Assembly (NCBI GenBank): GCA_030549335.1
Contig: CM060196.1
Span: forward strand, 12,725,501-12,789,500
Length of the DNA stretch: 64,000 bases
Direction: 5' to 3'
Source: Pontederia crassipes
Taxonomy: Eukaryota > Streptophyta > Magnoliopsida > Commelinales > Pontederiaceae
A program made the translations under genes and the position numbers. Positions 7,080 through 48,953 of this stretch are shown here, piece by piece; position 1 is the first letter of the stretch; the number at the start of each line of letters is the position of its first letter. The notes beneath the pieces are model-generated. The model saw nothing but the letters and a program-made list of their open reading frames with translations. It was not told the origin of the DNA and did not search any database.

Positions 7080-8040
7080 ACGAAGTGGGTACCATCAGCT
7101 TAGAGTCGCCGATGAAGATGTGCAGAAGACAACTTTCCGATCAAGGTATGATCACTATGAATTTTTAATGATGCCTTTTGGATTGACAAACGCCCCTACA
7201 GCCTTCATGGATCTCATGAACCGTGTGTTCAAGTCGTACTTGGATCAGTTCATCATCATTTTTGTGGATGACATTCTGATTTATTCGGCAAGTCCAGAAC
7301 AACACAAGGAACACATGAAGATCATGTTGGAAATATTAAGACAACATCAGTTATATGGAAAGCCATCCAAGTGAGTTCTGGCTTGATCGGATTATGTTTC
7401 TTGGACACATAATCTCGAAGAAGGGCATTTCTGTTGATCCTTCCAAGATAGAAGCGGTATCTCACTGACCAAGGCCAAAGCATGCCATCAAAATCCGTAG
7501 ATTCCTAAGATTGGTAGGTTATTACCGTAGGTTCATCAAGGATTTCCCAAAAATTGCATCTCTCTTGACAATCCTAATGAAGAAGGGTGTGAAATACATA
7601 TGGACACAGAAACGTGAAGATAGTTTTCATGAACTGAAGGCCAGGTTAATCACTGCACTCATACTTACTATTCCGCAGGGTACTGACGGATATGTAATGT
7701 GCAGTGATGCTTGCGATACCGGATTGGGATATGCGCTCATGTAACATGGTAAGATAGTCACATATGCATCTGAGCAGTTGAAGAAGCATGAGGTGAACTA
7801 CCTAACTCATGATCTTGAATTGGTAGTAGTAGTATTTGCATTGAAAATTTGTAGACACTACCTTTATGGAGTTCAGTTCGAGATATTCACCGACCACAAA
7901 AGCCTTAAGTACGCCTTCTCTCAATGAGACCTCAACATGCAAGAACGAAGATGGATGAAATTTTTGAAGGATTATGAGTTTTCCATTAATTACCATCATG
8001 GTAAGGCGAACTCAGTTGTAGACGCACTTAGTCACAAATG
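7080..8040 (+). pseudogene. Reverse transcriptase and RNase H remnants of the Tekay-like element
   Basis: Visible blocks are [20 protein letters not shown] with the catalytic FVDD (about 7180-7300), then GYYRRFIKDF (7515-7545) and an RNase H start with CSDACDTGLGYAL (about 7700-7740). The block ending at 8030 (INYHHGKANSVVDALSHK) closes RNase H. The N-terminal third of the RT, normally with the LDL-type catalytic Asp, is absent between 6941 and about 7085. Several stops and frameshifts break the rest. Confidence 0.8.
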
Positions 8041-9144
8041 GGAAGGTTCATTAGCTCACATGATGATGGGAATGTATAAGATGATGAAGGAATTGAGCTT
8101 TTGGAAACTAGGACCTGGCAGGAACGGAGCAGTATTGATGATGCATCAGATACAAATGAATCTGGTGGACAGATTTATTAAGACTCAGACGCAAGATCCT
8201 GAGTATGCAAAGACGTTAGGAAGATGTCAGAAAAAAGAAGATTTTAAGCTCTCAGCAGATGGTGGAATCCGATACAGTGATCGTCTGTGGGTCTCAAGCG
8301 ATGGAACTCTTAAAAGAGAAGTGATGCATGAATGCCATAAGTTTGAATTTGCAATCCATCAGGACAGCACTAAGATGCACAAGGATGTTCAAAGGACCTT
8401 TCGGTGGAATGACATGAAGCGAGAGATTGCTGAGTATATTTCGAAGTGCCTGGTTTGCCAACAAGTAAAAGTGGAACATCAGAAGCCTTACGGAAAGATC
8501 ACATCTCTCGCTACCCCACAGTGAAAATGGAAAGATATTTTCATGGATTTCATAACATGTCTACTCCGTACCCAGAAGGGACATGATGCCATATGAGTAA
8601 ACGTAGATCACTTAACAAAGTCTGCACACTTTTTACTCATTAAGTCCAAACAATGAGTTGAGAGCCTCATAGATTTATATGTTCGTGAGATCATCAGACT
8701 TCATGGGATCCCCACTTCCATCGTATCAGATAGAGATTCGAGATTTACATCTAGATTCTACAGTAGCCTACAAGACTTTTTTGAAATAAGGCTGAATTAT
8801 ATCACAACATTTTATCCACAAATAGACAGTCAAACTGAGAGGACCATCCAAACGGTTGATGATATGTTAAGAGTTTGTGCCCTTGACTGACGTGGCAATT
8901 GGGATGATCACCTATCACTGATCGAATTTGCTTATAATAATAGTTATCATTCCAGCATCCGCATGGCTCTCTTTGCAGTTCTGTATGGAAGACCCTATCC
9001 TGGAATAAGGTAGGTGAAAGAAAGATTTTGGATGCTAAAGAGCTGAAACAAACAGAGAAATATTCAGCAAGAGTCAAGTTGATATGAGAAAGGATGAAGG
9101 CAGCTCAAGCTCGACATAAGTTTTATGCTGACAAATATTGACGT
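8041..9144 (+). pseudogene. Integrase remnant of the Tekay-like element (first part)
   Basis: The zinc-binding block is recognisable (CHKFEFAIHQDSTKMHKDVQ near 8335, then KCLVCQQVK near 8450), followed by parts of the catalytic core: HGIPTSIVSDRDSRFTS near 8700 and FYPQIDSQTERTIQTV near 8810. Stops interrupt the frame, for example after ATPQ at 8521. The reading breaks at 9144 where a solo LTR is inserted and resumes after about 10868. Confidence 0.8.
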
Positions 9145-17016: not shown

Positions 17017-17635
17017 TGTCGATACCACAATGGCGACTCGAGCAATCCGTACAGGGACATGATACAAGATGCAATGTTAGGAGAAAATATTGACGAAACA
17101 TTGATTGAAGAAGACCCGAATCCTTCGGCTTCTAAGTTTTATAATCTTCTCGAAGAAGCAACCTTTATGAGATGGATGCGTGAAACAAACTACACTTTCT
17201 GTAGTGGCACAACCCATGAATTTAAAATCAAAATTTAATATGAGCGAAAGTTGTTTTGACCGGATGCTTGCCATTATTAAGAGTATGCTTTCAGCTTCAG
17301 AGAAATTATCAGGACATTTTTACAAGTGTAAACGGTTGATGAGAGATTTAGGGTTGGAATATCAAAAGATTGATGCATGCCGCAATTAGTGCATGTTGTA
17401 CTATAAAGAAAACAACTTACTTATGAGTTGTTCTATTTGTGGCGAGTCCAGATTCAAACCGAAAAAGAATTTCCAAAGTTTGAAAAAAAAATGTGGCAAA
17501 TGCAATATTTAGATACTTTCCGATTGTTCCAAGATTACAACGACTATTTCTTTCTAAAAAAACTGCATCATTTATGAGGTGGCACAGAGAAGGGGCACGT
17601 GAAGATCAAAATTCAATTACACATCCTTCGGATGC
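17017..17635 (+). pseudogene. TNP2-like CACTA transposase, first part
   Basis: Frames broken by shifts show the start of the TNP2 (Transposase_21) family: DPNPSASKFYNLLEEA near 17115, then KRLMRDLGLEYQKIDAC near 17335, then CSICGESRFK near 17430. The acidic start and the CxxC block are standard in this family, whose product cuts the element ends in the nucleus. At least one frameshift near 17170 and stops at 17387 and 17516 inactivate it. The gene is cut at 17635 by the Athila-like insertion and resumes at 31883. Confidence 0.8.
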
Positions 17636-20600
17636 TGATAGTGATATTTGGGTTTTATAGTGATAACTTGCTGAAATTAAAGAAAATGTCAATTTTTCAT
17701 TTTTTTTTTGGTCTCCCAACTCACTAGCTGCAAGTGCACAGGTAAGTTATAGTAGACTCAGGTTGTCGTATCCACAAGAATTTGAAGTCTAAGGCACCCT
17801 AAAACAATCTAAATTAGTTCTACTTTAATGGTTAAAAATAGATTTTCAAAGGGAAGTGAAAACAGATTTTTTTTATGGAAAGTGAAATGATAACAGATTT
17901 TTGGGTTTTGGAAATTTATCAAAACTGAATTATAAATGCTAGAATGAAGTCTAAAAAGGTTTAACTATCTATGAGGAAGGTTCTTCTAGGATTTGGGGTT
18001 CATCTAAATTAATTAAGGATGGAATGGAACAAGTTATCACTAAATGTCCAACTTTTGATTCAACTTGAAAATGGGTGTTCCCACAGCTCAATTGGCTTCT
18101 AACTAAGCAATATATGATTATATAATTGTTAGCTAGGTTGAATCAAAAGAGGGTCCTCACTGAAAATCAAGTTATCATTGGGCTCAAAAGAAAGATTCAA
18201 TGCTGATTTTTTGCAATTCAAGGAAGTTTGGAATGATAACTTGCATTTACAATCATAAAAAGATGGAATCATTCCAATCAACCAAACCAGGATAAAATAT
18301 ACTCAATAATGGTGCTTGTGTTCCATGATTCATCTCTGAATTCAAGGGAGATTCAAAATCAACCTCTCGGTTGCAAAATAAATTGGAATCCACACAAACA
18401 CACTCAATTGGAAATGCAAAACATATGGCCACATGAGTTCACAATTTCCATTGCTCCTTGGCCCATATCTGGATCTCAAAGAAGCCCTTAAGACTACCTC
18501 TCAGTAGTGGATTAATATGAGGGTTGACAATGGAAATCAGAAGTTAGAAAAATGAGAAAACAGAAATCAACATTTCTGAAAAAATCAGCAATGTGGATTG
18601 ATGGAATTCAAGTTTGCCAAATGCCCCTTGACCCATCTCTGGATTACAAGGGATTCCTAGAGTACACCTCTCAGTGATTTGAATAAAATAGGGATTAACA
18701 ATTGGCAAATCAGATTCCAAACAATCAGAAAATAGAATTTAGAATCAAACTAAGAAATCAGATTTTGGAAAAAAATCAGATTTGAATTCTGAATTGTCAA
18801 TGATCTTGATTCATTTCTGAATAAGATCATGGCATATATTAGCCTCTCAACTATTCAATTATCTAATCCTTGATGACAATCAGATTCAAAAGCCCAAGAA
18901 ATTAGATTTTTAAATTCAGAAAACCAGATTCTGAAATTCAGGAATTTTAGGTTCCAAATCAAACTTAAGGTAATGTTGAGAATAGATTTGAATCATGAAA
19001 TGCCCAAATATTCATAACTCAATTCTGAACAAGATTAGGATGAAGACCAACCTTCCAATTGCTCAATTAATCAAGTTCAGAATGTCAAATAGGTTCAAAC
19101 AGTTCAGAAATCAGATAACCAAAAAATCAGAATTAGAAATCAGTGGAAAAAAAAATCTGATTTGAGTCAAATGATTGTCCAAATAATCTTGATTCATTTT
19201 TGAACAAGATAGGGACAATAGCAACATCCCAAGAACTCAAATCCTTGATGACAATCAGATCCAAAGCCCAAGAAATCAGATTTTCAGACTTCAGGAATTT
19301 AGGAAACCAAAAAAATCAGCAACTCAGTAATTTAGAAATCAGAATTTTAAACCAATGGAAACCTGACTTACCAATTGATTCTTGATCCATCTCTGGATTA
19401 CAAGACATCCCTAAAGTTCACTTATCAGTGAAGGGAATGATTCAGGGGACTCAATTGATTAAATCAGATTCCAATTAGGAATCAGAAAAAATTAGAATTC
19501 TGATTTCTATTAAAAAATCAATGGAAAATTCTGGTTTTGAGTCAAATGATTGCCCAAACAATCTTGATTCATTTCTGATCAAGATTTGGGACAATATCAA
19601 CCTTCTAGTTGCTCTATTAATCAAATCCACAATGGCAAACAGATTCAAAGGTCTAGGAATTCTGGTTCAGGAAATTCAGAAAAACAGAAACCAGAAATCT
19701 AAATTTCAGAAATCAGCACTTCAATTAAATTGGAATAAAGAACTTGACATTGATTTCTAATCCATTTCTGAACTAGGGATAGATCAAATGATAACTTCTC
19801 AGCTATAGATTACAATAGGATCCAACAATGGCAAGAACTAACATTAGAAAATTCTGAAATCTGAAAATCAGCAAATGATTCAGTGCAGGAATTATAAAAC
19901 AGTCCATATCCATCCAAAACTAATCTAAACTACTACCCTATCCTAGAAGAAATGGAGTTTAGCTCCTCATATTTACAAGATTTGACATCAAATGGGATAA
20001 GAAACAGATACAATTCATGGTTCTTTGAAGCTTCCTGGCCAGCAGCTCCTCCACCAGAATCAATCCAGCCTTGCTTGCCTTCAAACCCTTGAATGACCAG
20101 CCTCCCCTCTCCTCCAGAAAAATCCAGCTTATATATCACTCCTTTCCACCCTTTGATCAGCATCTAAATGTTCTAATCCTCCTGATTGCAGCCACCTGTC
20201 CACCCCTCTGAAATTCCAGCTGCAGATTCCTTTTTGGTGCAGGAAAAAGTAGATGGTCCCCCCTACTTTGTCCACTTTTTGGCCACCTTTCTCCCTGCTA
20301 CAAATCCCCAAACAGCATCAAAGCCCTTGAATGGTATTTTGACAAATAAGGATTAGGATAATGATAGTTGCTAGCTCAGATATCAAATGATATTAGGTGT
20401 TGTGCAGGAATGAAAACTTGTATCAAAATTAATGAATTAAGGGGCCCGGAATGATAACTTTATGAAAATCTTGGAAAATGTCCTAATATGGGTGGTTCAA
20501 AGCATTTCAGGCATCAAATTGATTAGAGTGACAAGTGAGTGAGGTCAGAAATCAAATATGAATGAGATTCCTAAAAGTGATAACTTGAGTGCCCCAAAAA

Positions 20601-21173
20601 CGATAACTTATATGACTTAAAAATGATAACTTGTCATAACTTGAGTTTTGATTATTCAAATGTGATGAAATTTGACCAGCAATGAGTTAGAACAATAATA
20701 AGATGATTGCTTAAGGTCCTTGTGCAGAATTAATGGTTTTGCATGTCGAAATGATAGAATTGCCCTTTAACGATAACTTGGCACTTGAAAAATGATAACT
20801 TGTTCAAATGGACTCAAAACTTTGCACAAGTTGAGATGTGACTATCCAAACATGATTTATACATGATAATGATGGATTTAGGGCAAGAAAACCATTGAAA
20901 ATAAGTTCATTCAAAATAATGATAACTTGACACTTAGGAATGATAACTTGTCCTTAAAATGATAACTTGGCATAGAATTTAAATATTAATAGATTTTGGA
21001 ATTTCAGAACCTCTATGCACATGGAATTAAGTATGAAATGAGGAATATCAACTAGTTATCACAATGTTTGCATTCCAAGTATAATTGGCCCAAAACTAGG
21101 CAAAAGTGAGACTCGATATGTATGAATTGCATCTAAAATGGGTTAAAATCATATAGTGATCAGCAAGTGATCA
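17636..21173 (-). repeat. 3' LTR of the Athila-like element (3538 bp)
   Basis: It starts TGATAGTGATATTTGG and ends AGTGATCA. Compared with the 5' LTR it has 20 extra bases after gtgcacagg near 17745 and one or two homopolymer differences. The region 18331-19763 is a degenerate tandem repeat array and 20440-20990 holds many gataacttg words (see findings). The 76-codon minus-strand frame at 19933-20163 is present in both LTRs and is probably untranslated leader. Confidence 0.93.
18320..19900. repeat. Degenerate tandem array, unit about 133-208 bp, inside the LTR
   Basis: A phrase close to gattcatttctgaacaaga recurs with anchors at 18331, 18464, 18634, 18812, 19020, 19195, 19388, 19570 and 19763. 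The spacings are 133, 170, 178, 208, 175, 193, 182 and 193 bp. After it come shared phrases such as a cctctcagt-like block and runs of aaatcaga. The same array lies in the other LTR about 10.7 kb away (roughly 29030-30600). Confidence 0.75.
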
Positions 21174-22713
21174 AACTCCCCCAAGCTTAGCTTTTTGCTT
21201 GTCCTCAAGCAAAACATTCAGAAATTAAGGACAAACTTGAATTAAAAGTCCACAAATGAAGTAAAGATTAGCTGAATTGAATCCAATGAGTTTCCCACTT
21301 TGCCAACACTTCATTCTTTCCAAAAACTCAATTTCTAGCTAGGGAATCACAGAGGCTAAAGCAAATTTAAGCCATGGAAGAAGTACTAGCAATAACATGT
21401 TTGAATTGTAGGAATTGTCAACTTTACAAAGGGGTTGAACTACAAATCTCTTCATGAACAGGTTTTGAATTGATTAAACAGGTTTAACACCTGACTTTTA
21501 TTCATGAAATGCATATAAATAGGTTTAGCACCTGATTTTTATTCATGCTTTCTTTAGGAGAGATTCCTTTGGAAGTTTTGCTCTCCTAATTTTTTTTTCT
21601 TTTTGCATTGAAGAGAGATTCCTTTGGAAGTTTTGCTCTCTTCCTTTTTTCTATGCATGCATATGAATTTTTACTTTTCCTTTTTTTCATTTTTCTATCC
21701 TGTTCATGAAGTGAGCAATAGTTCAAACTCAAGTATAGTTTAGATCCCTTTATCCAAAAAGTCAAGTTTTTCCTATTTAGCATGGCAGCAAGAGCCTTGA
21801 CTCTCTTCTAGATATCTGATATTACTAATTCAATCCATAAGTATCAGCTAGTGTGACCCACAAAAAGGAAAAATTTTCAGCTAAAAACTTCATTCAAATG
21901 CATCTGAATTCATAATGTCAATTAAAGCAAGAAGGCTAATGGCCAAGTTGGCCACTTGGTATTGGAGTGCACCCACTGTCAAAATAAAGTATTCTACCCA
22001 TTTCAGAGTCAAAATGAATTCAGAATTGAGTTGGGTCCAAAAATTGATAACCGAGTGATAACTAGTGATAACTTGTGAAAACCAATGATAACCTGGTATG
22101 AATTATGATATGAACATTAAAATCAATTGAAAACATGATGTAAAAGTTAGAAAAGCATCAGGTTTCCTCCCCCAAGCTTATTCTCAACACTGTCCTCAGG
22201 GTTGAAATAAAGGCAAGGGAGAGGGGTGGGTGGGATTGAAATGCATTAAATTGGGCATTTGAATTCTCTTGGCACTTCATCCAGAAACTTTGGGTGGTCT
22301 AATCTTCTTAGTTGCAACTGATCCTGTAGAGAAACAAAGGATATCAATTGGTATGGCAGATTTGCAACTAATCAGATTTTTTAGTGCAGAATTCAACATT
22401 GCATTGGGAATTTTTGAAATTCACTGAAATTGGGCTATAATAGATTGGGATAACTGAAATGAATGTTAATTCAGATGATAATATGATCAATGTAGCATAA
22501 TGAAAAAAATATTATCAGTTATCATTAAGTTTTCAGTGTAAAAATCAGAAATATGGGTAAGGGTACTCCCTGAATTTGAGACTTGTGAATTGAACATGTT
22601 CCTCATCCCTTATTCCTGCAAAAACAGAAAGATTAAGTGTAAAGTGACTTGGGTTACCTCCCAGGAAGTGCCTTTCTTTAATGTCTTTGGCTAGACATTG
22701 ATACATGGTGAAA
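21174..22713 (-). other. Athila-like element 3' non-coding region and polypurine tract
   Basis: Reading on the minus strand, pol ends at 22714 and about 1.5 kb without a recognisable frame follows. Just before the 3' LTR the minus strand reads gcttgggggagtt (21174-21186), the polypurine tract that primes plus-strand DNA synthesis. Athila elements often carry an env-like frame here; none is visible. Copies of tgataact words occur near 22040-22100. Confidence 0.8.
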
Positions 22714-25700
22714 TCAGTTAGGTGGTAGTGGCAAATCAACTAGAGTCAGCTCCTCCTTTGCAGAATCCATGGCTGTGGGATTGTAAAGCTTTAACCTCTG
22801 TCCATTTACCTTAAATATGTCATCTTTGTCATTCAGAAGGTCAACAGCACCAAATGGATATACTTTATGAATTTTGAATGGTCCACTCCACCTTGACTTC
22901 AACTTTCCTGGAAAAATCTTTAATCTTGAGTTGAAGAGTAATACAAGGTCTCCAACCTTGAAATCCCTTTTCAGAATCCTTCCATCATGCCATCTTTTAG
23001 TCCTTTCCTTGTAGAATTCTAAATTATGGTAGGCATTTAGCCTAATTTCATCAAGTTCATCAATTTGGAGAAGCCTCTTTTGACCACATGCATGCATATC
23101 ATAATTGAGTGCCTTGACTGCCCAATATGCCTTATGCTTCAACTCAATTGGCAAATGGCAGGTTTTTCCATAGACAAGCTTGTAGAGAGAAGTACCAATT
23201 GGAGTCTTGTATGCTGTCCTATATGTCCAAAGAGCTTCATTCAACTTCAAACTCTAATCTTTTCTTGTCAAAGAAACTGTTTTCTCCAATATGGCCTTTA
23301 CCTCCCTATTTGACACTTCTGCTTGGCCATTTGTTTGGGGGTGATATGAAGTGGAAACTTTGTGCCTCACTCCATATTTAATTAGGAGGTTTTCAAAACA
23401 CCTTTCAATAAAGTGGCTACCCCCATCACTTATGACCACTCTAGGAATTCCAAATCTTGGAAAGATAACTTCCTTGAACAACTTGATTACTGCCCTGGAA
23501 TCAGCTGCAATGGTGGGAATGGCCTCAATCCATTTGGACACATAGTCCACAGCTAGAAGAATAAATTTGTAACCACACGAACTAGGGAAAGGCCCCATGT
23601 AGTCAATTCCCCAAACATCAAATATTTCCACTTCTAGAATTCCTTGTTGTGGCATTTCATTCCTTCTTGAAATGGAACCAGCTCTTTGGCATTGATCACA
23701 ACCCTTCACAAAGATATGTGCATTCTTGAATAAACTTAGCCAATAAAATCCAGATTGGAGGACTTTGGCAGCAGTCTTGTGTGTGGCTCCATGACCTCCA
23801 TAAGGGGATGAATGGCATGCCTCCAAGATTTCTTGAAATTCAGATTGGGGTACACATCTTCTATACATGCCATCAGGAGATTTTCTGAATAGAAAGGGAT
23901 CATCCCAATAATAATCTTTCAAGTCATGAAAGAATTTCTTTCTTTGCTGATATGTGTAGTCAGGAGGGGTAATTCCACATGCAAGATAATTGACCAAGTC
24001 AGCATACCAGGGAATTTGATTAATTGCCACAGCCATCAAACTATCATCAGGAAATGCATCATTGATAGGAAGTGTAGATGATTCCTGTATCCCTTCCATT
24101 CTTGATAGGTGGTCAGCTACTAGATTTTCACTTCCCCTTTTGTCCCTAATTTCTACATCAAATTCTTGAAGCAATAAGATCCACCTGATTAGCCTTGGCT
24201 TGGATTCTTTCTTGTTGATTAAGTGCCTCACAGCTTGGTGGTCTGTGAAAACAATAACCTTGGATCCCACCAGGTATGGCCTGAATTTGTCAAATGCATA
24301 CACCACAGCAAGAAGTTCTTTCTCAGTAGTTGCATAATTGATTTGTGCTTCATCTAAAGTTTTGCTTGCATAGCATATGACATGGTGCTTATTCTCCTTG
24401 GTTTGCCCCAGCACAGCTCCTACTGCCTGGTCAGAAGCATCACACATGATCTCAAAAGGGAGAGTCCAGTCAGGTGGCTGCACTACAGGGGCTGAGATGA
24501 GGGCTTCCTTCAACTTCTTGAATGCCTTCATACACTCTTCATCAAATTGAAACTCAACATCCTTGGCCAGCAACTTGGTGAGGGGCCTAGTTATCATGGA
24601 GAAATATTTAATAAACCTCCTATAGAAGCCTGCATGCCCCAAAAAACTCCTAATTGCCTTGACACTTGTGGGTGGTGGTAGTTTCTCAATCACTTCAATT
24701 TTTGCCTTGTCCACTTCAATGCCTTTGCTTGAGACCACATGTCCTAAGACAACTCCTTCTTGGACCATAAAGTGACATTTCTCCCAATTGAGTATCAAAT
24801 TGGATTCCCTACATCTTTGTAGCACTTTTGTTAAATTGTCCAAGCAAGCATCAAATGAGTCTCCATACACTGAAAAATCATCCATGAAGACCTCCATAAT
24901 TTCTTCAATGAAGTCTGAAAATATAGACATCATACACCTTTGGAAAGTTGCAGGGGCATTGCATAAGCCAAAGGGCATTCTCCTATAGGCAAAAGTCCCA
25001 TATGGACAAGTGAATGTAGTCTTGTGTTGATCTTGGGGGTGAATTGGAATTTGCAAGAAACCTGAGTACCCATCAAGATAACAGAAATGGGAATGCCTAG
25101 CCAGCCTTTCCAGCATCTGATCAATGAATGGCAATGGGAAATGGTCCTTTCTTGTGGCCTTGTTTAACTTCCTGAAGTCAATGCACATCCTCCAACCTGT
25201 AATGGTTCTTATGGATATCAATTCATCAGAATCTGACTTCACCATTGTAATTCCTCCCTTCTTTGGCACCACCTGCACTGGACTGACCCATTCACTATCT
25301 GAAATGGAGTATATGATTCCTGCATTCAGCAACTTCAATACTTCTTTCTTTATCACTTCTTTCATGGTTGGGTTGAGTCTCCTTTGACATTCAATGGAGG
25401 GCTTGTAGCTGTCCTCCATAGGGATCCTATGCATGCAAATGGAGGGATTAATACCCTTGATATCTTCAATTGAGTAGCCTATCACCTCCCTATACAATTT
25501 CAACCTCTTCAGCAGCTCTTCCACCTGATCCTGAGGCAAATTAGCATTAATGATAACAGGAAAAGTTGAATTCTCTCCCAAGAATTCATACTTCAAATTG
25601 CTAGGAAGAGGCTTGAGTTCCAACTTGGAATTGGCTTGAACTGGATTGCCTTGGCATTCAGCAATGATAACCTGTTGTACCTCACCTTGAATTCCTACAT

Positions 25701-28200
25701 TTTCCACTGATATTGAAGAGTTCAGTACTGATTTATATGCCATAGCCTCTGGATCTTCCAATTCTCTCAAATGGTCAAAAATTAGACACCTTTGCAATGG
25801 ATCTTCAATAGAGATTATAGCTGAAACTTGCTCCACCACCTGATTCAATTGCCCATCTTCAAAATCATTTTCTAGAAAACTTGGCCTACTGATAACTTGG
25901 GCCAAATTGAATTCAATCTTCTCCTCTCCAATTTGGAAGGCCAATCTCCCTTCCTTAACATTAATTACAGCCCCTACAGTGGCTAGAAAGGGCCTCCCAA
26001 GGAGAATGGGGGTGTTCACATCTTCATCCATATCTAATACAACAAAATCAACTGGAATATAGAATTTACCAACTTTGCGGGGTATGTCCTCAATAATCCC
26101 ATGTGGATATTTGATGGATCTGTCTGCCAGCTGAAGGGACATATTTGTTGGCTTCAAATCTCCAACTTCAAGTTTCCTACACAATGATAAGGGTATGACA
26201 CTCACAGAAGCTCCCAAGTCACACATGGCTCTTTGAATTTTTCTATTGCCTATCTCACATGGAATTGAGAAGCTTCCTGGATCCTTGAGCTTTGGAGGCA
26301 ACTTATTCTGGATAATTGCAGAAGCCTCTTCAGTCAATGCTATAGTCTCATGCTCCAATACTCTTCTCTTCTTGGTTAGGATTTCCTTTAGAAACTTGAC
26401 ATATGATGGCATTTCCTAGATGGCTTCAACAAAAGGAACATTTATGTATAGCTTCTTCAGGATTTCCAAGAACCTTCCATATTGCTGGTCTTGTCTTGCC
26501 TTGATTAACCTTTGAGGGAAGGGTACCTTGTCAAAAACCCTTGGATTTGCTTCAATTTGAGGGCTTGAATTCCTGATTTCCTCACTTGGTTGTTCACTTG
26601 GCTTTTCAGCAAACCTTGAGTCTGAATTGGCTTGATTATCATCCACTTTCTTCATTGGTTCCTCCACCATTTTACCACTTCTGAGCTGGATGGTCTTTGC
26701 TTGCTCCTTTGGATTTACTTATGGCTGTCCAGGAAAGAATAAGGGAGGTCTAGTGGATGTACTAGCTTGTTGAGCAATTTGGCTTTCCAACAATTTCTGA
26801 TTTGCATTCATGGCATCCAATCTAGAATTGATCTTCAAAATCTCCTCTCCTTGGCTGTCTTGCTTCTTCAGAATTTGTTGAAGCATCTCCTTCATTTCAT
26901 TTTGGAATTGTGATGCTTGGACTTGAGGTGGTGGCTCATACAGATTTCTTTGAATTGGTGCACTTTGGCCTTGATTTCCATAAGGTGGTGGTGGCTGATT
27001 CCTTGGCAGGATTTTAGGCTGCCAATTTGAATTTTGCATAGGAGCTCCTTGATATTTGTTGCCCTTGTAAGAAAAGTATGGATGATTCCTGTTTTCTGGA
27101 GTATAAAATTCAGCAGGAGGTTTGATTCCATAATTGCCCACAGCATTGATTTGATCCACATTTTGGTCCACTTGCTGCATAATTAAGTTGCAATTCTCTG
27201 ACACATGGCCTTGATTCCCACATACACAACACCTTGTTTCAGAATTGGAAGTCCTATTGCCATTGGGAGTCAAGTTCAACCTCTCCAAAGTCTTGTACAA
27301 CACCTCTTCAAGTTGAGTTGACAATTGATTCACTGAATTGTCCATGGGTGGCCTCCTGGTTCTATCATGGGTAAGGAAGTGGTGATTCTTGGCTATGTTT
27401 TCAATGAGTTGATAAGCTTCATCAATGTTTTTAGATGCAAAGATGCCTCCTGCAGCAGTATCCAATGCCACCTTGCTAGGGTAGTTCAATCCCTTATGAA
27501 AATAGTTGACTAGCTGTCACTTCTCAAAACCATGATGGGGACATGCCCTTAATAATCCTTGAAGCCTTTGCCATGCCTCACAAATATTTTCTTGGTCCAA
27601 CTGATAGAACCTCACTATTTGATCCCTGAAGTTATCAGTTTTTGAAGGAGGAAAGAATTCTGAAAGGAACAATTGAACAATTGATTCCCAAGTGGCTACC
27701 TCTTCAGGATTCAATCCTTTAAACCATATCTTGGCCTTGTCCTTGAGTGAGAAGGGAAATAATCTCATATACACTGCATTCATGGGGATATTATTGAAGT
27801 TCACAGTGCTGCATATCTCCTTGAAATTGTCCAAATGACATGCTGGATCTTCAGTCCCAAGTCCAGAAAACTGACTTTGCCTAATCATAGAAATCAAGGC
27901 TGGATTAACTTCAAAATTTGCCACAGGTGCTAAGGCTCCTCCCCCTTGTTGATTCCTTGCATTGCTTGGTGAATAACAGTCCCTAAGAGTTCTAGGAACT
28001 GCCATATTTTGATTCATAACTCTTTCAAATTCAGGATTGTATGCTTCTTCCTCTTCTTCTTCAAATATCCTTCTCCTTGCCTCAAGCCTTTGCAATCTCC
28101 TTCTTCTTAAAAATCTTCTTTCAGGTTCAGGATCTGATTGGTAATGTTCCTCTTGATGGTCCAAGTCCTGCAGAAAGAGATTCAAAAGTATCAAATTCAA
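22714..28200 (-). pseudogene. Athila-like gag-pol polyprotein, one frame with four stop codons
   Basis: Five open stretches lie in the same reading frame: 28200-27517, 27489-26719, 26670-26416, 26412-23254 and 23250-22714. They are separated by single stops (TGA near 27516, TAA near 26718, TAG near 26415 and TAG near 23253) without frameshift. Gag has a capsid core (FSLKDKAKIWFKGLNPEEV) and one CCHC knuckle (CVCGNQGHVSENC). In the long stretch, counting from its own Met, the protease motif DLGAS is at 65-69. RT has YLDGYSG near 445-451 and FMDD at 509-512. RNase H starts at CDAS 657-660. Integrase has H867, H874, C905, C908 and D937, D996, E1032 (a DD-35-E arrangement). All key residues are intact. 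It would copy and integrate the element if translated. Confidence 0.92.
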
Positions 28201-28337
28201 GAAAGAAATGAAAACTAGACAAAAATGAAAAGTAAGAAATGATAACTTGCAAAAACTGAAAATTAGCCTAACAAATAAACTAAAAACTAATCTAAAACTA
28301 ATCTAAACTATCTAAGTTAGCCTAATTGACCTCAAAT

Positions 28338-28360
28338 CCCCGGCAACGGCGCCAAAAACT
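28338..28360 (-). other. Primer binding site, tRNA-Asp type (Athila-like element)
   Basis: Right next to the 5' LTR the minus strand reads agtttttggcgccgttgccg followed by ggga. The tggcgccgttgccgggga core matches the known complement of the 3' end of plant tRNA-Asp, used by Athila elements to prime reverse transcription. The leader from here to the first gag Met (28200) is only about 140 bases. Confidence 0.85.
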
Positions 28361-31300
28361 TGATAGTGATATTTGGGTTTTATAGTGATAACTTGCTGAA
28401 ATTAAAGAAAATATCAATTTTTCATTTTTTTTTGGTCTCCCAACTCACTAGCTGCAAGTGCACAGGTTGTCGTATCCACAAGAATTTGAAGTCTAAGGCA
28501 CCCTAAAACAATCTAAATTAGTTCTACTTTAATGGCTAAAAATAGATTTTCAAAGGGAAGTGAAAACAGATTTTTTTTATGGAAAGTGAAATGATAACAG
28601 ATTTTTGGGTTTTGGAAATTTATCAAAACTGAATTATAAATGCTAGAATGAAGTCTAAAAAGGTTTAACTATCTATGAGGAAGGTTCTTCTAGGATTTGG
28701 GGTTCATCTAAATTAATTAAGGATGGAATGGAACAAGTTATCACTAAATGTCCAACTTTTGATTCAACTTGAAAATGGGTGTTCCCACAGCTCAATTGGC
28801 TTCTAACTAAGCAATATATGATTATATAATTGTTAGCTAGGTTGAATCAAAAGAGGGTCCTCACTGAAAATCAAGTTATCATTGGGCTCAAAAGAAAGAT
28901 TCAATGCTGATTTTTTGCAATTCAAGGAAGTTTGGAATGATAACTTGCATTTACAATCATAAAAAGATGGAATCATTCCAATCAACCAAACCAGGATAAA
29001 ATATACTCAATAATGGTGCTTGTGTTCCATGATTCATCTCTGAATTCAAGGGAGATTCAAAATCAACCTCTCGGTTGCAAAATAAATTGGAATCCACACA
29101 AACACACTCAATTGGAAATGCAAAACATATGACCACATGAGTTCACAATTTCCATTGCTCCTTGGCCCATCTCTGGATCTCAAAGAAGCCCTTAAGACTA
29201 CCTCTCAGTAGTGGATTAATATGAGGGTTGACAATGGAAATCAGAAGTTAGAAAAATGAGAAAACAGAAATCAACATTTCTGAAAAAATCAGCAATGTGG
29301 ATTGATGGAATTCAAGTTTGCCAAATGCCCCTTGACCCATCTCTGGATTACAAGGGATTCCTAGAGTACACCTCTCAGTGATTTGAATAAAATAGGGATT
29401 AACAATTGGCAAATCAGATTCCAAACAATCAGAAAATAGAATTTAGAATCAAACTAAGAAATCAGATTTTGGAAAAAAATCAGATTTGAATTCTGAATTG
29501 TCAATGATCTTGATTCATTTCTGAATAAGATCATGGCATATATTAGCCTCTCAACTATTCAATTATCTAATCCTTGATGACAATCAGATTCAAAAGCCCA
29601 AGAAATTAGATTTTTAAATTCAGAAAACCAGATTCTGAAATTCAGGAATTTTAGGTTCCAAATCAAACTTAAGGTAATGTTGAGAATAGATTTGAATCAT
29701 GAAATGCCCAAATATTCATAACTCAATTCTGAACAAGATTAGGATGAAGACCAACCTTCCAATTGCTCAATTAATCAAGTTCAGAATGTCAAATAGGTTC
29801 AAACAGTTCAGAAATCAGATAACCAAAAAATCAGAATTAGAAATCAGTGGAAAAAAAAATCTGATTTGAGTCAAATGATTGTCCAAATAATCTTGATTCA
29901 TTTTTGAACAAGATAGGGACAATAGCAACATCCCAAGAACTCAAATCCTTGATGACAATCAGATCCAAAGCCCAAGAAATCAGATTTTCAGACTTCAGGA
30001 ATTTAGGAAACCAAAAAAATCAGCAACTCAGTAATTTAGAAATCAGAATTTTAAACCAATGGAAACCTGACTTACCAATTGATTCTTGACCCATCTCTGG
30101 ATTACAAGACATCCCTAAAGTTCACTTATCAGTGAAGGGAATGATTCAGGGGACTCAATTGATTAAATCAGATTCCAATTAGGAATCAGAAAAATTAGAA
30201 TTCTGATTTCTATTAAAAAATCAATGGAAAATTCTGGTTTTGAGTCAAATGATTGCCCAAACAATCTTGATTCATTTCTGATCAAGATTTGGGACAATAT
30301 CAACCTTCTAGTTGCTCTATTAATCAAATCCACAATGGCAAACAGATTCAAAGGTCCAGGAATTCTGGTTCAGGAAATTCAGAAAAACAGAAACCAGAAA
30401 TCTAAATTTCAGAAATCAGCACTTCAATTAAATTGGAATAAAGAACTTGACATTGATTTCTAATCCATTTCTGAACTAGGGATAGATCAAATGATAACTT
30501 CTCAGCTATAGATTACAATAGGATCCAACAATGGCAAGAACTAACATTAGAAAATTCTGAAATCTGAAAATCAGCAAATGATTCAGTGCAGGAATTATAA
30601 AACAGTCCATATCCATCCAAAACTAATCTAAACTACTACCCTATCCTAGAAGAAATGGAGTTTAGCTCCTCATATTTACAAGATTTGACATCAAATGGGA
30701 TAAGAAACAGATACAATTCATGGTTCTTTGAAGCTTCCTGGCCAGCAGCTCCTCCACCAGAATCAATCCAGCCTTGCTTGCCTTCAAACCCTTGAATGAC
30801 CAGCCTCCCCTCTCCTCCAGAAAAATCCAGCTTATATATCACTCCTTTCCACCCTTTGATCAGCATCTAAATGTTCTAATCCTCCTGATTGCAGCCACCT
30901 GTCCACCCCTCTGAAATTCCAGCTGCAGATTCCTTTTTGGTGCAGGAAAAAGTAGATGGTCCCCCCCTACTTTGTCCACTTTTTGGCCACCTTTCTCCCT
31001 GCTACAAATCCCCAAACAGCATCAAAGCCCTTGAATGGTATTTTGACAAATAAGGATTAGGATAATGATAGTTGCTAGCTCAGATATCAAATGATATTAG
31101 GTGTTGTGCAGGAATGAAAACTTGTATCAAAATTAATGAATTAAGGGGCCCGGAATGATAACTTTATGAAAATCTTGGAAAATGTCCTAATATGGGTGGT
31201 TCAAAGCATTTCAGGCATCAAATTGATTAGAGTGACAAGTGAGTGAGGTCAGAAATCAAATATGAATGAGATTCCTAAAAGTGATAACTTGAGTGCCCCA

Positions 31301-31877
31301 AAAACGATAACTTATATGACTTAAAAATGATAACTTGTCATAACTTGAGTTTTGATTATTCAAATGTGATGAAATTTGACCAGCAATGAGTTAGAACAAT
31401 AATAAGATGATTGCTTAAGGTCCTTGTGCAGAATTAATGGTTTTGCATGTCGAAATGATAGAATTGCCCTTTAACGATAACTTGGCACTTGAAAAATGAT
31501 AACTTGTTCAAATGGACTCAAAACTTTGCACAAGTTGAGATGTGACTATCCAAACATGATTTATACATGATAATGATGGATTTAGGGCAAGAAAACCATT
31601 GAAAATAAGTTCATTCAAAATAATGATAACTTGACACTTAGGAATGATAACTTGTCCTTAAAATGATAACTTGGCATAGAATTTAAATATTAATAGATTT
31701 TGGAATTTCAGAACCTCTATGCACATGGAATTAAGTATGAAATGAGGAATATCAACTAGTTATCACAATGTTTGCATTCCAAGTATAATTGGCCCAAAAC
31801 TAGGCAAAAGTGAGACTCGATATGTATGAATTGCATCTAAAATGGGTTAAAATCATATAGTGATCAGCAAGTGATCA
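28361..31877 (-). repeat. 5' LTR of the Athila-like element (3517 bp)
   Basis: It is nearly identical to 17636-21173. On the minus strand a TATATAA lies at 30838-30832, about 1 kb into the LTR, followed by GA-rich DNA; this is a plausible element promoter. It ends AGTGATCA right before the gatgc duplication. Confidence 0.92.
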
Positions 31878-31882
31878 GATGC

Positions 31883-34540
31883 GGAGGCATAGAGACGATT
31901 TAATGCACTTCGTCCGACTTTTTCTACAGAATCACGCAATGTTATATTAGAACTTTGCACTGTTGGCTTCAACTCATTTGGCTCATCAAGTACTACTTAT
32001 TCATGTTGGCCAATTTTTGTGACACCTTATAATTTGCCTCCAAGCATGTGTATGAAACGAGAGAATATATTGCTTACCTGTATGATCTCAGGTCCTCGAC
32101 CTCTTAGTAAAAGTTTAGATGTTTATTCAAGATATTTGATTGATGAATTTAAGATGTTGTGGGAGGATGGCGTGATTACCTATGACAAATTTAAAAAGTA
32201 AAATTTCATTATGAGAACCGCATTAATGTGGACTATAAGCGATTTTCCGGCATATGGAATGTTGAGTGGTTGGAGCACAAAAGGAAAACTTGCTTGTCTC
32301 ATATGTGGAAAGAATACGAAATTATTTTATTTGAAAAATTATAGGAAAGTTTGCTGGTTTGATTGTCATAAAATATTTTTGCCATTGGAGAATTCGATGC
32401 GTCATGATCGAAACTCGTTTAAAAAGAATACACCCAAGAACATTTTGTCTCCAACTCATTTGACGAGACAAGAATTGCTAGAGCAAGTAAACAAGCTTAG
32501 TGAAATCTCATTCGGACTGAAGGTCGGTAGTTACAAGTAAATTGGGTTTGGAAGTAAACACAATTGGAAGAAAAGAAGTATTTTTTGGGAGTTACATTAT
32601 TGGTCTTCAAACTTGGTACGTCATAACTTGCACGTCGTGCATGTGAAGGAGAACATCTTTGACAACATCTTCAACACTATTATGGATGTTAAAGGAAAAA
32701 CAAAAGATAGCATACAGACTCGCGAAGACATAAAATTAATATGCAAAAGACCAGAGTTAGATATCATTCATATTCAAAATGGTAAATGCAAAAAGTCAAA
32801 AGCTACTTATGACTTGAACAATGATCAAAGAAAAGTGATTTTCGAATAGGTAAAGCAATTGAAATTCTCCGACAGATATATATCAAACATATCTCATTGT
32901 TTTAATTTGGACAATGGGAAGATACATGGGATGAAGGATCATGACTGTCATATTTTTATGCAAAGACTGTTTCCGATTGCCTTTAAAGAACTTTTGCCAA
33001 AAACCATCTAGGAGGTTTTAATAGAATTGTTTATGTTCTTTAAAGAGCTTTGTGCATCCATCATTCAGAAAGAAGACATCTCTCGGTTAGAGGCTTCTAT
33101 TGTGATTATCATGTGCAAGACTGAGAAGATATTTTCATCTTCTTTCTTTGATGTGATGGAACATTTGATTGTACATCTACCATATGAAATAAAAATTGAG
33201 GGCCCGGTTCAGTATCGTTCGAAAGGTGCATGTTATATTTGAAAAGGAAGGTGAAGAATAAGACAAAAATTGAAGGCTCCATATGTGAAGCATATTTCAT
33301 TGAGGAGGTGTCAAACTTCACTTCAAAATACTTTAAGTCACACATACAATTACGACACAACCAAGTTCCAAGAAACGATGATGGTGGTGAAAGAGAAGTT
33401 AACATGAATATTCTATCCATCTTCAAGTACACATGTCGACTTCTTGGTACATGACGCAAAGTTATCTTGAATGATAGAGATCTCATCGCCGTTGAGAATT
33501 ATGTTCTTACAAATTATAGCGAAGTGACGCTGTATCTCGAGTAAGACAATTTGTTCTAATTTGTTATATAATTTAAAGTTAATTGTTGCTATATGATTTT
33601 ATTAATTGAAAACTATGAATTCAGGAAATTCGAAGAATTACAGCAAGAAATCAATCCGTTAGTTTCAAACGATGAGTTATTGAAACTACGAGACGAACAT
33701 TTTGCCGATTGGTTGAGATGTGAAGTGAGAAATCTTTTCGCTTGTTCTTAATTATTATAAGTTCGTAACTTTTAATAAAGTTTTTAAGTTAATTTTCTTG
33801 TAGGTTATTAATGCCTCAGTCATAGAAAACAAAATACGAGATCTCGGTCATGGCCCGAAGAAACAAGTTCTTAGCTACTACGACATCATAGTCAATGGAT
33901 ATCAGTTACAAAAGAATATAGCCAACAACGTTCAACTATTAATAGCGGCATATGTGTTCTAGGAAGCATGTAAGGGGACAACAACTTTGATTACTACGGT
34001 GTTATAGAAGATATCCTAGAATTGTCTTATTTGAGAAAATCTAACAAAGTCATAGTGCTAAAATTCCGTTGGTTCGATCCAGAGAAAGGAGTTCGAATCG
34101 ATCAAAAGTTTAAATTGATGGATATTAACCCTCGGTCGAGACTTTAGTCATACGATCCATTCGTATTGGCGGAATAAGCACAATAAGTGTACTACACTAA
34201 ATATCCATAAAAAAGAACCAAGGATGAATGGTGGGCGTCATTCAAGGTGAGGAGTAAACTATTCTTAGCAGAAATAATGATAGATGACAATGAAACATCA
34301 TCCGTACACAACGATGTGCCCATGGACGATAACTATCAAGAAGATAGAGTGAATGAGACGATTGATGTGGCCGATGGAGTTGAAAATTTTCAATTGGTCG
34401 ATGACGCTGAACCAATGGAAGAGTTCAATTCAAATGACCTCTTGGATGTGAACTTTGATAATTTCATTGACGATGACTCGAACCAAGATTATAGCGATGA
34501 TGATGAAAATAAATTAGAATACGAAACAAGTGAATGACTC
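31883..34540 (+). pseudogene. TNP2-like CACTA transposase, second part
   Basis: The gene cut at 17635 continues with the conserved core: TPYNLPPSMCMKRENILLTC (32022), ALMWTISDFPAYGMLSGWST (32220) and GKLACLICGK. SSSFFDVMEHLIVHLPYE follows near 33140 and a DUF4216-like stretch (GVIEDILELSYLRKSNKVIV) near 33990. An acidic C-terminus (34247-34537) ends in a TGA. At least two introns are suggested (about 33543-33623 and 33728-33804, the latter ending ttttcttgtag). Stops (32199, 32538, 32847, 33009) and shifts show it is decayed. Transposase function is known for the family; this copy should be inactive. Confidence 0.85.
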
Positions 34541-39689: not shown

Positions 39690-42600
39690 GTCAGGAGGAT
39701 TGCGAATTGAGATATATAGAAAAAATTGATGGAACGCGATTTGATCCCTAGAAGATGAAGATGGAGGATCTCCTCTGTGATCGAGATCTTTGGACGGCAA
39801 TTGAGAAGGAGAGGCCAGGCATGGAAGCGGCAAAAGTCACGGATGGGACTTCCTCCAGTCAGGCAGATTCAAAGGCAATCAAAGAGTGGGATCAATTTGA
39901 TAGAAAGGTGAAGGGTTTGATTCAGCTTTGTCTCGCAGATTCAATTCTTATGAATGTGATGAGCGAACCTACAGCCAGATATCTGTGGAGGAAGTTGGAA
40001 TCTCTATATCAAAGTAAGTCACTGGTTAACAAGTTATTTCTAAAGAAGAAACTGTACAATCTTCGGATGCGTAAGGGTGACTCGTTCTCTACACATCTTT
40101 ACAACTTTAACACGGTGATCAGTCAACTTGTATCAATCGGTGTTAAATTTCAAGATGATGATAAAGCTTGCTCTGTTCGCTATCGAATTCATGAAACAAT
40201 CTGATTGTCGTGATTGGTGGCGAAGATAAAGAACTTTCGTATGAAAGTGTATGTGCTGCGTTCTTATTAGAGAAAATACGGAGAAAGGGATCGACAAGTT
40301 CTGGTAAAGAGGCACTGACGGCTAGAGTAAGGCAACTAGAAATGACTTAGAATCAGAGAGGGTCCATATTCAAATCTTGTGAGCGTTCGAAGAGTAGAGA
40401 TAAGAAGGTGCAATGCTGGGGATGTCAAGAGTGGGGTCATATGAAGCGAGATTGTAAAAATAAGCCAGTTCACAAGAAAGAAGCTAAGTCAACCTCGGAC
40501 AAAAAGGAGACCGAAGTAGGGGATATGTATCTGACTTCTGCATGTATGACACAGTCACATAATGATGTATGGGTCATCGACACTGGTGCTTCGTACCACA
40601 TGACACCTCATAGACACTGGTTTTGTGAATATGAGGAGTATAATGGTGGGAATGTCATGCTCGGAGATGATATTACGGTTCAGATTATTGGATGTGACAG
40701 GGTGAAGTTGGGGATGAATGATGGCACGGTGAAGACTCTATCAAATGTGATGCATATACCACTTATGAGCAGGAGTTTATTATCTGTTGGTACAATGGCT
40801 GATTCGGGTGTTATATTCAGTTGCGACAAAGATTCGTGCAAGATTATCAGAGGGTCGATTGTGATTGCACGAGGGGTTCGCTATGGCACATTGTATAAGT
40901 TGCTCGGAGAGACAATATCTGTAGGCTGCGTATTTATTTCTGAAGAGGCTAAAAAAAATGAAGACAACACATCTATGCTGTGGCATCAAAGATTAGGTCA
41001 TATCAGTGAGAAATAACTTTTTACCATAGCATCAAGTCAGATGGTAGAAGGAGTTCCAGATTGTTTTGTGGGCTTCGGGTTCTGTGAACATTACCTCCAT
41101 GAAAAACAGAACCGAGTCAGTTTTCAACACACAGGTACAAGAGCAACAAAGATTCTCGAATTGATCCATTGTGATGTATTTAGACCAACTCCGACTCCAT
41201 CTATTGGAGGGTCCAAGTACTATGTCTCTTTCATAGATGATTTTTTGAGATACAGTTGAATTTATTTTATAAAAAATAAGTCAGATGTATTCGATAAGTT
41301 TCGAAAATTTAAAGTTTTGGTGGAAAACCAATTAAGCAGCAAGATCAAGGTCCTTCGTACAGATAATGGAGGCAAATTTTGTTCAGATAAGTTTGAGCAG
41401 TTCTGCGTGGACAATGATATTGCAAGGCAAAAGATAACTCAATATACACCTGAGCAGAATGGAGTAGCTGAAATGTTAAATCGGTCACTCATAAAGAATG
41501 CCAGTTGTATGCTGAGTTGGACTGGATTGGGGCAAGAATTCTTGACGGAAGCTGTAGTCATAGCAAACTATCTGAAGAACCGCTCACCAATCTCATCAAT
41601 GAAGGATCGGACGCCTTATGAGGCAATGCTTGGGAAGAAGCCGAATCTGTCTCATGTTCGGGTGTTCGAATGTGACGCGTATGTTCATATATCCAAGGAA
41701 AAGCGAGGTAAGCTTGACAGTAAGTTTGAGAAGAACATATTTGTCGAATACAAGGAAGGGGTCAATGGCTATAAATTGTGGAATCCAAGGACAAGGACTA
41801 TCGTATACAACAGGGATGTTATTTTCCGTGAATCACGATCCCAAGTTGAGGCTCAGGAAAATGATGAACCCTAGAAAGTTGTAGTGTTTGAATAAGATTC
41901 TGATTCTGAAGTTGTAGAGGTGATTGCACAAGATACTTCAGTTGAGTCTGTTTCAGAATCTGATCAAGAGGACTCAGTTAATGTAGTTGAAGATGCAGAT
42001 TCAGATGAAGACCCAAATATTGGTACCGTACCAATTTTCAGGAGATCGACACGAGAAAGAAGAGCACATCTTAGATACTCTCTTAGTGCTCTGAGTTCAT
42101 TTCATGCTTTGAGCATCATCGGAGAAGAACCTAGTTCTGTAAAAGTTGCAAGGTCTATGGATGATGCAAATTAGTGGGAGCTTGCTATTGCAAATGAGAT
42201 GCAGTCACTGGATAAGAATGAAACATGGAGTTTGTGTAAATTGCCTAAGGATAGAAAGGTAATTGGTTGCAAATGGGTATTCAAACAAAAGCTGAAACCG
42301 AATTGGTATGTAGAGAAGTACAAGACGAGACTGGTAGCTAAAGGGTACTCTCAAATTGAGGGAGTCGACTATGATGAAATCTTTTTTTCGTGGCGAAAAT
42401 GACTTCAATCAGATTTGTTCTATCTATGACAACAGCATATAATCTTGAGATAGAGCAGATGGATGTGAAAACGACATTTCTTTATGGGAACTTGGAGGAA
42501 GAGATATATATGAGACAACCAGAAGGCTTTGAAGTTCAAGGTAAAGAGAATCTGGTGTACAAATTGAAGAAGTCTTTGTATGGATTGAAGCAGTCGTCAA

Positions 42601-47100: not shown

Positions 47101-48900
47101 TATTATTACCCCTTTAACAAATTTATTCCAATTAGGCATCTTTTCACGTTTCCCTATTTCTCATCTAACTATACTTTTATTTCTTTCCAAATTTATTTTA
47201 ATTATTTATGTTTTTAATTTAATTAATTATAAATATTATGTTTGTTTTTAAAAAAATTGGATGTTACAAGAGGTCCATACTTCATGCGCGGCTTAAAATT
47301 GTTTTTCTAAATTAGTTTAGTGCACTAGAAATTTCGCTATATCCTATTATTCAATTCTTTTGGTTCAAAGTCTGTAAAAAAGTCTTCAAAAATTAAATTT
47401 GATGTAAGGCTTATCTGTCCAATTATTTTCATGGCAATCATATATCGTTCAACACAAAGGTGTTCATCGAGTGATAAATTTGATGATTCATCTTTTAGGT
47501 ATGGAATAGGAAATTCTCACCCTGAATTAACTCAACCATTTGTCCAAAGTGAGATCTCACCGAATAAATGTGAAAAATGGTGCATCTTCAACTCTTGCTC
47601 AAGGTGGCTTAATTCATTGATTCGGTGAAACTTAATGAAACTGTGAAAGTGTGTTATTATTTCTTTCCGTTGACTTTGGTACTTTAATATTTTGATCGTG
47701 TACTTTGGTTCTGTTCATGTATTATTTCTTCGCATCGTTGGTATATTTTGGGAGTAAGGGCACGTGATGTACGTTATGCACTATTTTATGAGAAGGAGTT
47801 ATGCCAACCTAGCTTAATTATTCTTTTCCAACTCAAGTATCTCGTATATGCTACATATCCGGGGCATAGTTTTCTATTCTTTCTTAACAGCATTACTCCT
47901 TTAATTGTAAAGACTTAATAATACATGATCTCCTATGTTATATATATGTTTATTAATTTTTAAATATTTATATTGATCATATAAAATATGTCATAAAATT
48001 ATATTAAAATTTTACAAATATTTTTTTTAAAAAATCAATTAAGAATAGTAAACTCCTAAAGTAGGAAGATTTTAAAATGGTAAAATGTAAATGGAGAACT
48101 TAACAATGTTGCAGTTTGTTCTTTTTTTTTCTTCCTTGCCTTGACAATATTTCCCATCCCTCAAGGAGCCGAGGGTCACTTTGAAGATTGGAATAGTTGC
48201 CCTCGTCCAACGGAATTTTGATCTCTGAAATTATTATTTAAAATTTTAATATTAATTTAGTAATTTTATTTTTTAAAATAAGTTCTATATATAATTTTAA
48301 ATATTTTATAATAATATAATACATGTATTATTTTTAATTAGTCATATTTTAATATTCTAACATACATTATCTATTACTTTATTATTTTAAAAAATGATTT
48401 ATTTTATTATTTTTATAATTATTAATTTTTTTATAAATAAAATGATGAGAGGTTTGGATCCTAAGGAAAATGACACGAGGCTTATATCGTCTTCACTTTA
48501 GCTCAAAAGAAGAAAAAAATCTTGGTCAACATGTGCTTTAACCTTCCATCATATCATATGAGCTTAAGTTTACTATAGTTTTTAGCAAAAAATAAATCAA
48601 GAAAATTTATTATAGTTTTTATCAAAAATAAAAGAAAAAACTATACACTGTTACTTTTTTCTACTTTTAAATTATAGAGAAAAAAAAATTAAGATTTGAT
48701 AAACGAAAAGATAAATTTAAATGTATTCACTGCACTAAGCTCCCATTGCATGCCTTCCACTTTAGTCATGGACAAGAAAATAATTTATTTAACCACTTAT
48801 AATTATATTTCTATCCTAAACAACCACCTAAAAAATGAATTCCTTAAAATAAGATTAATTAAAAATAACGTTAAGCAAAGGAATCGCAAAGAATCTGACA
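44150..48900. other. AT-rich intergenic DNA with duplications and LTR fragments
   Basis: No gene is recognised. The notable parts are a duplicated block (45185-45790 and, split, 45838-46075 plus 46975-47320) and LTR ends on the minus strand near 45726 and 47268 (TGTAACA). There is also a 145-bp tandem duplication at 46658-46950. The short frame at 47431-47628 has no family signature. Confidence 0.55.
45185..47320. repeat. Duplicated block of about 600 bp, second copy split by an insertion of about 900 bp
   Basis: Text from attgagaaccaatggacatc (45189) through cttgattaagttaatcttc (45410) recurs from 45838 to about 46075. The continuation of copy 1 (aaactcttatctcc, 45460, to ggcttaaaaag, 45770) recurs only after 46975. 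The 46076-46974 insert contains a 145-bp tandem duplication with anchors 46661 and 46806. Both copies end in the TGTAACA-type LTR end on the minus strand. Confidence 0.7.
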
Positions 48901-48953
48901 ATAAATTAACGTGCAGAACGCGAAGCGAATCAGAGAGACGAAAGAAAGGGAGG

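Follow-up and report, generated by a model that had tools for sequence, protein, structure and literature searches.

How can a retrotransposon whose two long terminal repeats (LTRs) are almost identical carry a coding frame broken by four stop codons? The question is raised by a 64,000-nucleotide stretch of the Pontederia crassipes genome (GenBank assembly GCA_030549335.1, contig CM060196.1, positions 12,725,501 to 12,789,500), here called the window. Positions 17636-31877 of the window contain a complete minus-strand LTR retrotransposon of 14.2 kb, a dead member of a large family of Athila-like Ty3/Gypsy elements. Its gag-pol region (22714..28017, minus strand) forms a single frame that opens with an ATG at 28017 and closes with the terminal TGA (22714-22716). 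Four internal stops lie in this frame, all on the minus strand: stop 1 (TGA, 27517..27519), just past the conserved Gag domain; stop 2 (TAA, 26719..26721); stop 3 (TAG, 26416..26418); and stop 4 (TAG, 23254..23256), past the integrase core. An initial annotation of this DNA had reported four in-frame stops without a frameshift, and all four were indeed located in one frame. No private indels were seen in the gag-pol frame, where 0.8 would be expected. The same annotation had proposed that each stop could come from one C:G to T:A change; one of the four, however, arose by transversion.

Alignment of the 5' LTR (28361..31877, minus strand, named in the sense of the element) with the 3' LTR (17636..21173, minus strand) showed 6 substitutions in 3516 aligned sites, a divergence of 0.17%, and 4 gaps of 1, 20, 1, and 1 nt. 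The earlier count of about six substitutions was therefore accurate, but the 20-bp deletion had gone unlisted. These 20 bp are kept in the 3' LTR (17739..17758, minus strand), with short direct repeats on either side. The gap is a derived deletion in the 5' LTR, because the compared sister LTRs keep the 20 bp.

The coding region gives a different age. When compared with 15-29 sister loci per segment, the window copy shows 26 private changes over 5301 bp of coding sequence. Had all of them followed insertion, the LTRs should differ at 34.5 sites; only 6 differences are seen (Poisson P 3e-9), and the LTR divergence is thus about sixfold below that of the interior branch. At the rate set by the LTRs, about 4.5 coding changes would have followed insertion, with 0.2-0.4 nonsense changes among them. 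The probability of at least four nonsense changes then lies between 9e-5 and 5e-4; if the LTR rate is set to its upper 95% bound, it rises to 0.002-0.009. The suspicion in the initial annotation that four stops fit poorly with so few LTR changes is borne out by these values. With a rate of 1.3e-8 per site per year, hand reckoning dates the LTRs to about 66 kyr and the coding branch to about 380 kyr. For dating, the element is a worked case: judged by its own coding region, its LTR identity makes it look about six times too young.

The private coding changes comprise 18 missense, 4 nonsense, and 4 silent changes. Singletons in the sister copies are distributed alike (219 missense, 18 nonsense, 79 silent; P 0.35), whereas variants present in at least four copies differ strongly (42 missense, 0 nonsense, 126 silent; Fisher P 7e-9). 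By these ratios, the transmitted lineages of the family are under purifying selection and the branch of this copy is not. The terminal branch of the window copy evolved without visible purifying selection, as did other terminal branches. The nonsense share (4/26, vs 18/316 in sister singletons) is in weak excess (P 0.075); under two simple mutation models P was 0.04 and 0.04, and under the observed spectrum it was 0.15. C:G to T:A changes account for 18 of the 26, and they are threefold enriched at CHG sites (6/290 vs 12/1863; Fisher P 0.026). This bias, together with the CHG excess, would fit a slow decay of methylated DNA.

Sister loci were sought in the whole genome (1.13 Gb, 43 contigs). 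A 401-bp gag query returned 1804 first-look candidates genome-wide, of which 40 were scored. The queries for stop 1 and for stop 4 each gave 39 non-window matches, 29 of which were kept as loci in either case, and the middle of pol was compared against 15 copies. A sense codon was found at the stop 1 and stop 4 sites in 29/29 best-matching sister loci each, and at the stop 2 and stop 3 sites in 28/28 sister loci covering each site. Stop-free sister copies, along with an LTR divergence far above 1 percent, had been named in the initial annotation as findings that would speak against it; the stops were missing from the sister loci that were read, but the divergence stands at the 0.17% given above.

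Stop alleles were also searched genome-wide, using exact 18-20 base patterns around each stop. The patterns for stops 1-4 matched 9, 3, 8, and 13 places including the window, that is, 8, 2, 7, and 12 places besides it; for stop 1, the sense form of the exact 18 bases occurs in 229 places. By these patterns, no second place in the genome holds two of the four stops within 20 kb, and only the element in the window does. Ten places carrying stop 1 or stop 2 (L092-L101) were read, and were 1.6 to 21% diverged from the window copy. The other members of stops 1-3 were absent wherever covered, the uncovered sites being stop 3 in L094, stops 2 and 3 in L097, and stop 1 in L101. The stop 4 site was read in none of the ten, so co-occurrence there is excluded by the exact-pattern search only. 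Among the other private alleles examined, that at element position 5017 was found in L092, L095, L096, and L101, and that at position 4822 in L094. Because these loci are so diverged and lack the other stops where covered, they look like repeat hits rather than shared descent. A subfamily sharing the stops was also considered, and it is unsupported: each stop recurs singly, never two together. Several copies with the same set of lesions, the mark of a non-autonomous lineage moved in trans, were not found by the exact patterns.

Three sister LTR pairs were readable in part (L012, L014, and L016). In the L012 copy, the LTRs differ at 12 places in 1658 bp (LTR/2 0.36%), and 12 private changes were counted over 3601 sites of the interior (0.33%). 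Here the LTR count is the BLAST count; the comparison of shared and unshared changes gives 18 unshared sites, which include an apparent misaligned repeat at 1577-1633. The L014 copy, which has five stops, shows 7 LTR differences in 783 (LTR/2 0.45%) and 31 private changes in 5644 (0.55%). Both copies hold the LTR clock within 20%, and the window copy departs from these two controls (binomial P 2.5e-4). The L016 copy, whose LTRs have diverged by 2.5-3.2% and whose 5' LTR is missing its central part, was for that reason left out of this test. L016, L069, L003, and L070 are parts of one copy on G000:C10, which is probably a chimeric element.

The LTRs of the window copy were then compared with reference LTRs of the family, leaving out L004, L007, and L008 as diverged. 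Twelve private changes are common to both LTRs (11 with another reference set) and six occur in one LTR only, so the private load per 3.5 kb LTR is 12 shared and about 3 unshared changes. Eight of the 12 shared changes are C:G to T:A. Along the LTR, the changes fall into only four runs: eight shared, two unshared, four shared, and four unshared (exact P 0.007). In the last 840 bp there are 0 shared and 4 unshared changes, vs 12 and 2 elsewhere (Fisher P 0.005); this boundary was fixed by locus coverage, not by the result. Restricting both zones to the same four or seven reference LTRs likewise left no shared private change in the last 840 bp. The two nearest LTRs in the search made, L090 (G000:C6) and L091 (G000:C19), are single LTRs that have no gag-pol and none of the shared private changes. 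One of the two has an ATCAT duplication by eye and is a solo LTR; the other is cut short at its end. About 190 bp of extra sequence was found in mid-LTR in L070, L071, and L072.

The reading favoured here, with middling confidence, is decay in place followed by gene conversion between the two LTRs. The element would have inserted intact and then been silenced, and mutations, the stops included, would have gathered in place. Later, most of each LTR would have been homogenised by gene conversion between the element's own two LTRs, which would have reset the LTR clock and left the interior untouched. The clustering of shared and unshared changes is what conversion tracts would leave. A reset of the LTR clock is an already-known process and the simplest reading. 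In 25,144 plant elements, possible converted regions were reported in 25% of LTR pairs, a value that its authors call an upper limit (PMC7251063). As in that account, the LTRs look younger than other evidence allows, and putative homogenised patches are present. Here, by contrast, age was read independently from the interior of the element, set against sister copies, and the conversion itself is inferred. An argument for conversion from the longest identical tract was dropped, as hand reckoning gave no significance.

Several observations weigh against this reading. The L016 copy has widely separated LTRs yet few private coding changes; the LTRs of the family can therefore have mixed histories, and for more than one reason the LTR clock of the family is unreliable. 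In most of the LTR, the shared changes were called against 5-13 reference LTRs. The absence of shared changes from the last 840 bp hinges on L090 and L091, both close to the element there; against L071 and L072 alone, the same stretch has 7 shared differences in 837 sites. Private changes common to both LTRs occur in the sisters too, with 4 in 1622 sites in L012 and 4 in 761 sites in L014, three of the latter within 9 bp. The patches that contain all six differences (about 1.65 kb, picked after seeing the data) are still about 2.7-fold below the coding-branch prediction by hand reckoning. Since even these difference-rich patches are too similar, the conversion must have been extensive. Furthermore, a uniform history before insertion fits everything but the clustering and the missing parent.

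Such a history is the main rival, and we consider it somewhat less likely than not. A parent copy would first have died in the genome by accumulating most of the private changes, and probably the majority of the stops; the proteins of intact relatives would then have copied and integrated its RNA. The LTRs of the daughter would have been identical at insertion, with six differences acquired since. The small number of coding changes that fits after insertion at the LTR rate, about 4.5 of the 26, agrees with this, as do the eleven or twelve private changes common to both LTRs. Helper proteins are plausible, because many sister pieces have no stop in the stretch read. In Arabidopsis, Athila elements without pol are argued to owe at least some of their movement to mobilisation in trans (PMC2410132). 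However, the exact patterns revealed no parent or sib: with no two of the stops together anywhere else, none is visible in the assembly. The clustering of shared and unshared LTR changes also stands against a trans-copied daughter, and so do the two nearest LTRs on C6 and C19, single LTRs that have neither gag-pol nor the shared private changes. The proposal in the initial annotation that the stops predate insertion, with proteins supplied in trans, thus keeps some probability, but the lack of a parent and the conversion-like LTR pattern leave it second to decay in place and conversion.

It is improbable that the likeness of the LTRs was produced by the assembly itself. Consensus polishing could make LTRs falsely alike, and cross-mapping of LTR reads would also give patchy homogenisation. 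But two other copies in the same assembly keep their LTR differences (12 over 1658 bp and 7 over 783 bp), and six differences and the 20-bp deletion survive in the window copy.

Still less probable is a recent insertion followed by hypermutation or targeted deamination confined to the coding region, as the initial annotation had suggested. The preponderance of C:G to T:A among the private coding changes and their CHG excess would be expected from it. Against this, the spectrum and density of changes are alike in the LTRs, the 3' noncoding interior has 6 private changes in about 1167 sites, one stop is a transversion, and the coding and LTR rates agree in two sisters. With comparable loads in coding, LTR, and 3' noncoding DNA, the suggestion is unsupported.

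Readthrough of the stops in a functional element, also raised earlier, is almost certainly wrong: although the context of stop 1 resembles the CAR-YYA readthrough motif, the stops are no family features and are absent from the best-matching sister loci, 22 of the 26 private changes on a neutral branch alter or end the protein, and the bases after stop 1 are identical in the 229 sense-codon places, so that the context was not acquired with the stop. The resemblance, at 27511-27519, is probably a coincidence.

The more surprising property of the family is its near-total lack of CpG. Just 2 CpG occur in the 5301 bp of coding DNA (observed/expected 0.009), with 1 in the 3' noncoding interior (0.022), 7 in each LTR (0.07), and 3 in the 343-bp 5' leader (0.32); the whole element has 20 CpG in 14.2 kb. 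CAG and CTG are at expectation. The flanks have observed/expected ratios of 0.83 and 1.02, with single 1-kb flank windows down to 0.16. Three other retroelement open reading frames (ORFs) in the window have ratios of 0.56-0.81, and remnants of Copia-type and Gypsy-type elements (40351-41874 and 7928-8524) have ordinary CpG content. The survey of the family covered the window element and sister loci L010-L068 and L075-L101. Each of 83 coding pieces of relatives has 0 to 3 CpG, including two pieces that are 12 and 21% diverged.

New single-copy mutations in the family produce CpG about as often as chance predicts. There are 19 CpG-creating singletons, vs 18.5 expected under random mutation. Variants in at least four copies include only 1 that creates CpG, vs 19.5 expected; this deficit is overstated, the direction of the shared changes being unsettled. 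A direction-free test on a 2.2 kb gag piece compared two subfamilies of 19 and 10 copies. Of the 145 differences that separate them at 80% fixation, none involves a CpG, vs 8.7 expected at the singleton rate (P 1e-4).

CpG dinucleotides are the main sites of stable DNA methylation. Selection over the whole length may keep the family free of CpG and so allow it to escape CG maintenance methylation; copies that gain CpG would be silenced and leave no offspring. This explanation is offered tentatively, as we consider it rather unlikely. Fast decay of methylated CpG could contribute. Such decay seems too slow at the rates assumed here, because the family is only 1-8% diverged; selection acting on transmitted copies is accordingly the bolder account. 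Weak silencing of the family could let dead copies stay transcribed and be copied in trans. A known parallel is ONSEN/ATCOPIA78, a plant retrotransposon without sites for CG maintenance methylation, whose promoter is described as free of CG and CHG (PMC3907296). That description concerns the promoter only; in the present family the scarcity of CG extends over the full element and its coding region, and the CHG trinucleotides CAG and CTG are not depleted. Among titles and abstract openings in the literature on CpG-poor retrotransposons, ONSEN was the only parallel noticed. Plant retrotransposons of this family, which number at least in the hundreds, are thus almost without CpG. The measurable barrier between new and transmitted CpG mutations provides a natural setting in which to ask whether methylation sites determine which copies replicate.

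The element is bounded by the target-site duplication GATGC (17631..17635 and 31878..31882). An 18-nt stretch (28337..28354, minus strand) is a putative primer-binding site that would match the 3' end of plant tRNA-Asp; a tRNA-Asp primer site is typical of the Athila lineage. A polypurine-tract-like stretch (21174..21188, minus strand) adjoins the 3' LTR and was read directly in the sequence. On the minus strand, domain searches located Retrotrans_gag (PF03732, 27523..27765, with stop 1 just downstream), aspartic protease (PF13650, 25987..26265), reverse transcriptase (PF00078, 24736..25203), RNase H (PF17917, 24160..24471), and the integrase zinc-binding and core domains (PF17921 and PF00665, 23338..23853). 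By eye, the translation contains putative reverse transcriptase, RNase H, and integrase motifs. The Athila assignment is a provisional one, made from such motifs. Among the 120 listed of 7944 matches to the reverse transcriptase, identities were 51-69%, and the named entries were all plants. A scan of viral contigs gave no relative.

The domain order (gag, protease, reverse transcriptase, RNase H, integrase) is that of Ty3/Gypsy Athila-like elements. Many Athila members, but not all, have an env-like ORF after pol. Unlike these env-bearing members, the window element has no env-like ORF of at least 100 amino acids between pol and the 3' LTR (21174-22713). The domain order, the long LTRs, and the many copies in a plant genome agree with the Athila lineage of Ty3/Gypsy, which includes non-autonomous members (PMC2410132). 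Unlike a non-autonomous subfamily, the broken copy here is a singleton.

Evenly spaced family members were seen elsewhere in the genome. On G000:C11, members at 41258598, 41269069, and 41279523 lie on one strand with a spacing of about 10.5 kb. On G000:C2 (21377712-21411112), two plus-strand copies are 7.8 kb apart and three minus-strand copies are 7.5 kb apart. These members may be tandem arrays that share LTRs. In the window, the host DNA at the insertion is a CACTA-type transposase remnant (Transposase_21, 31893..32540, plus strand), and a cytochrome P450 gene is present as two ORF pieces at 48693-50625 on the plus strand.

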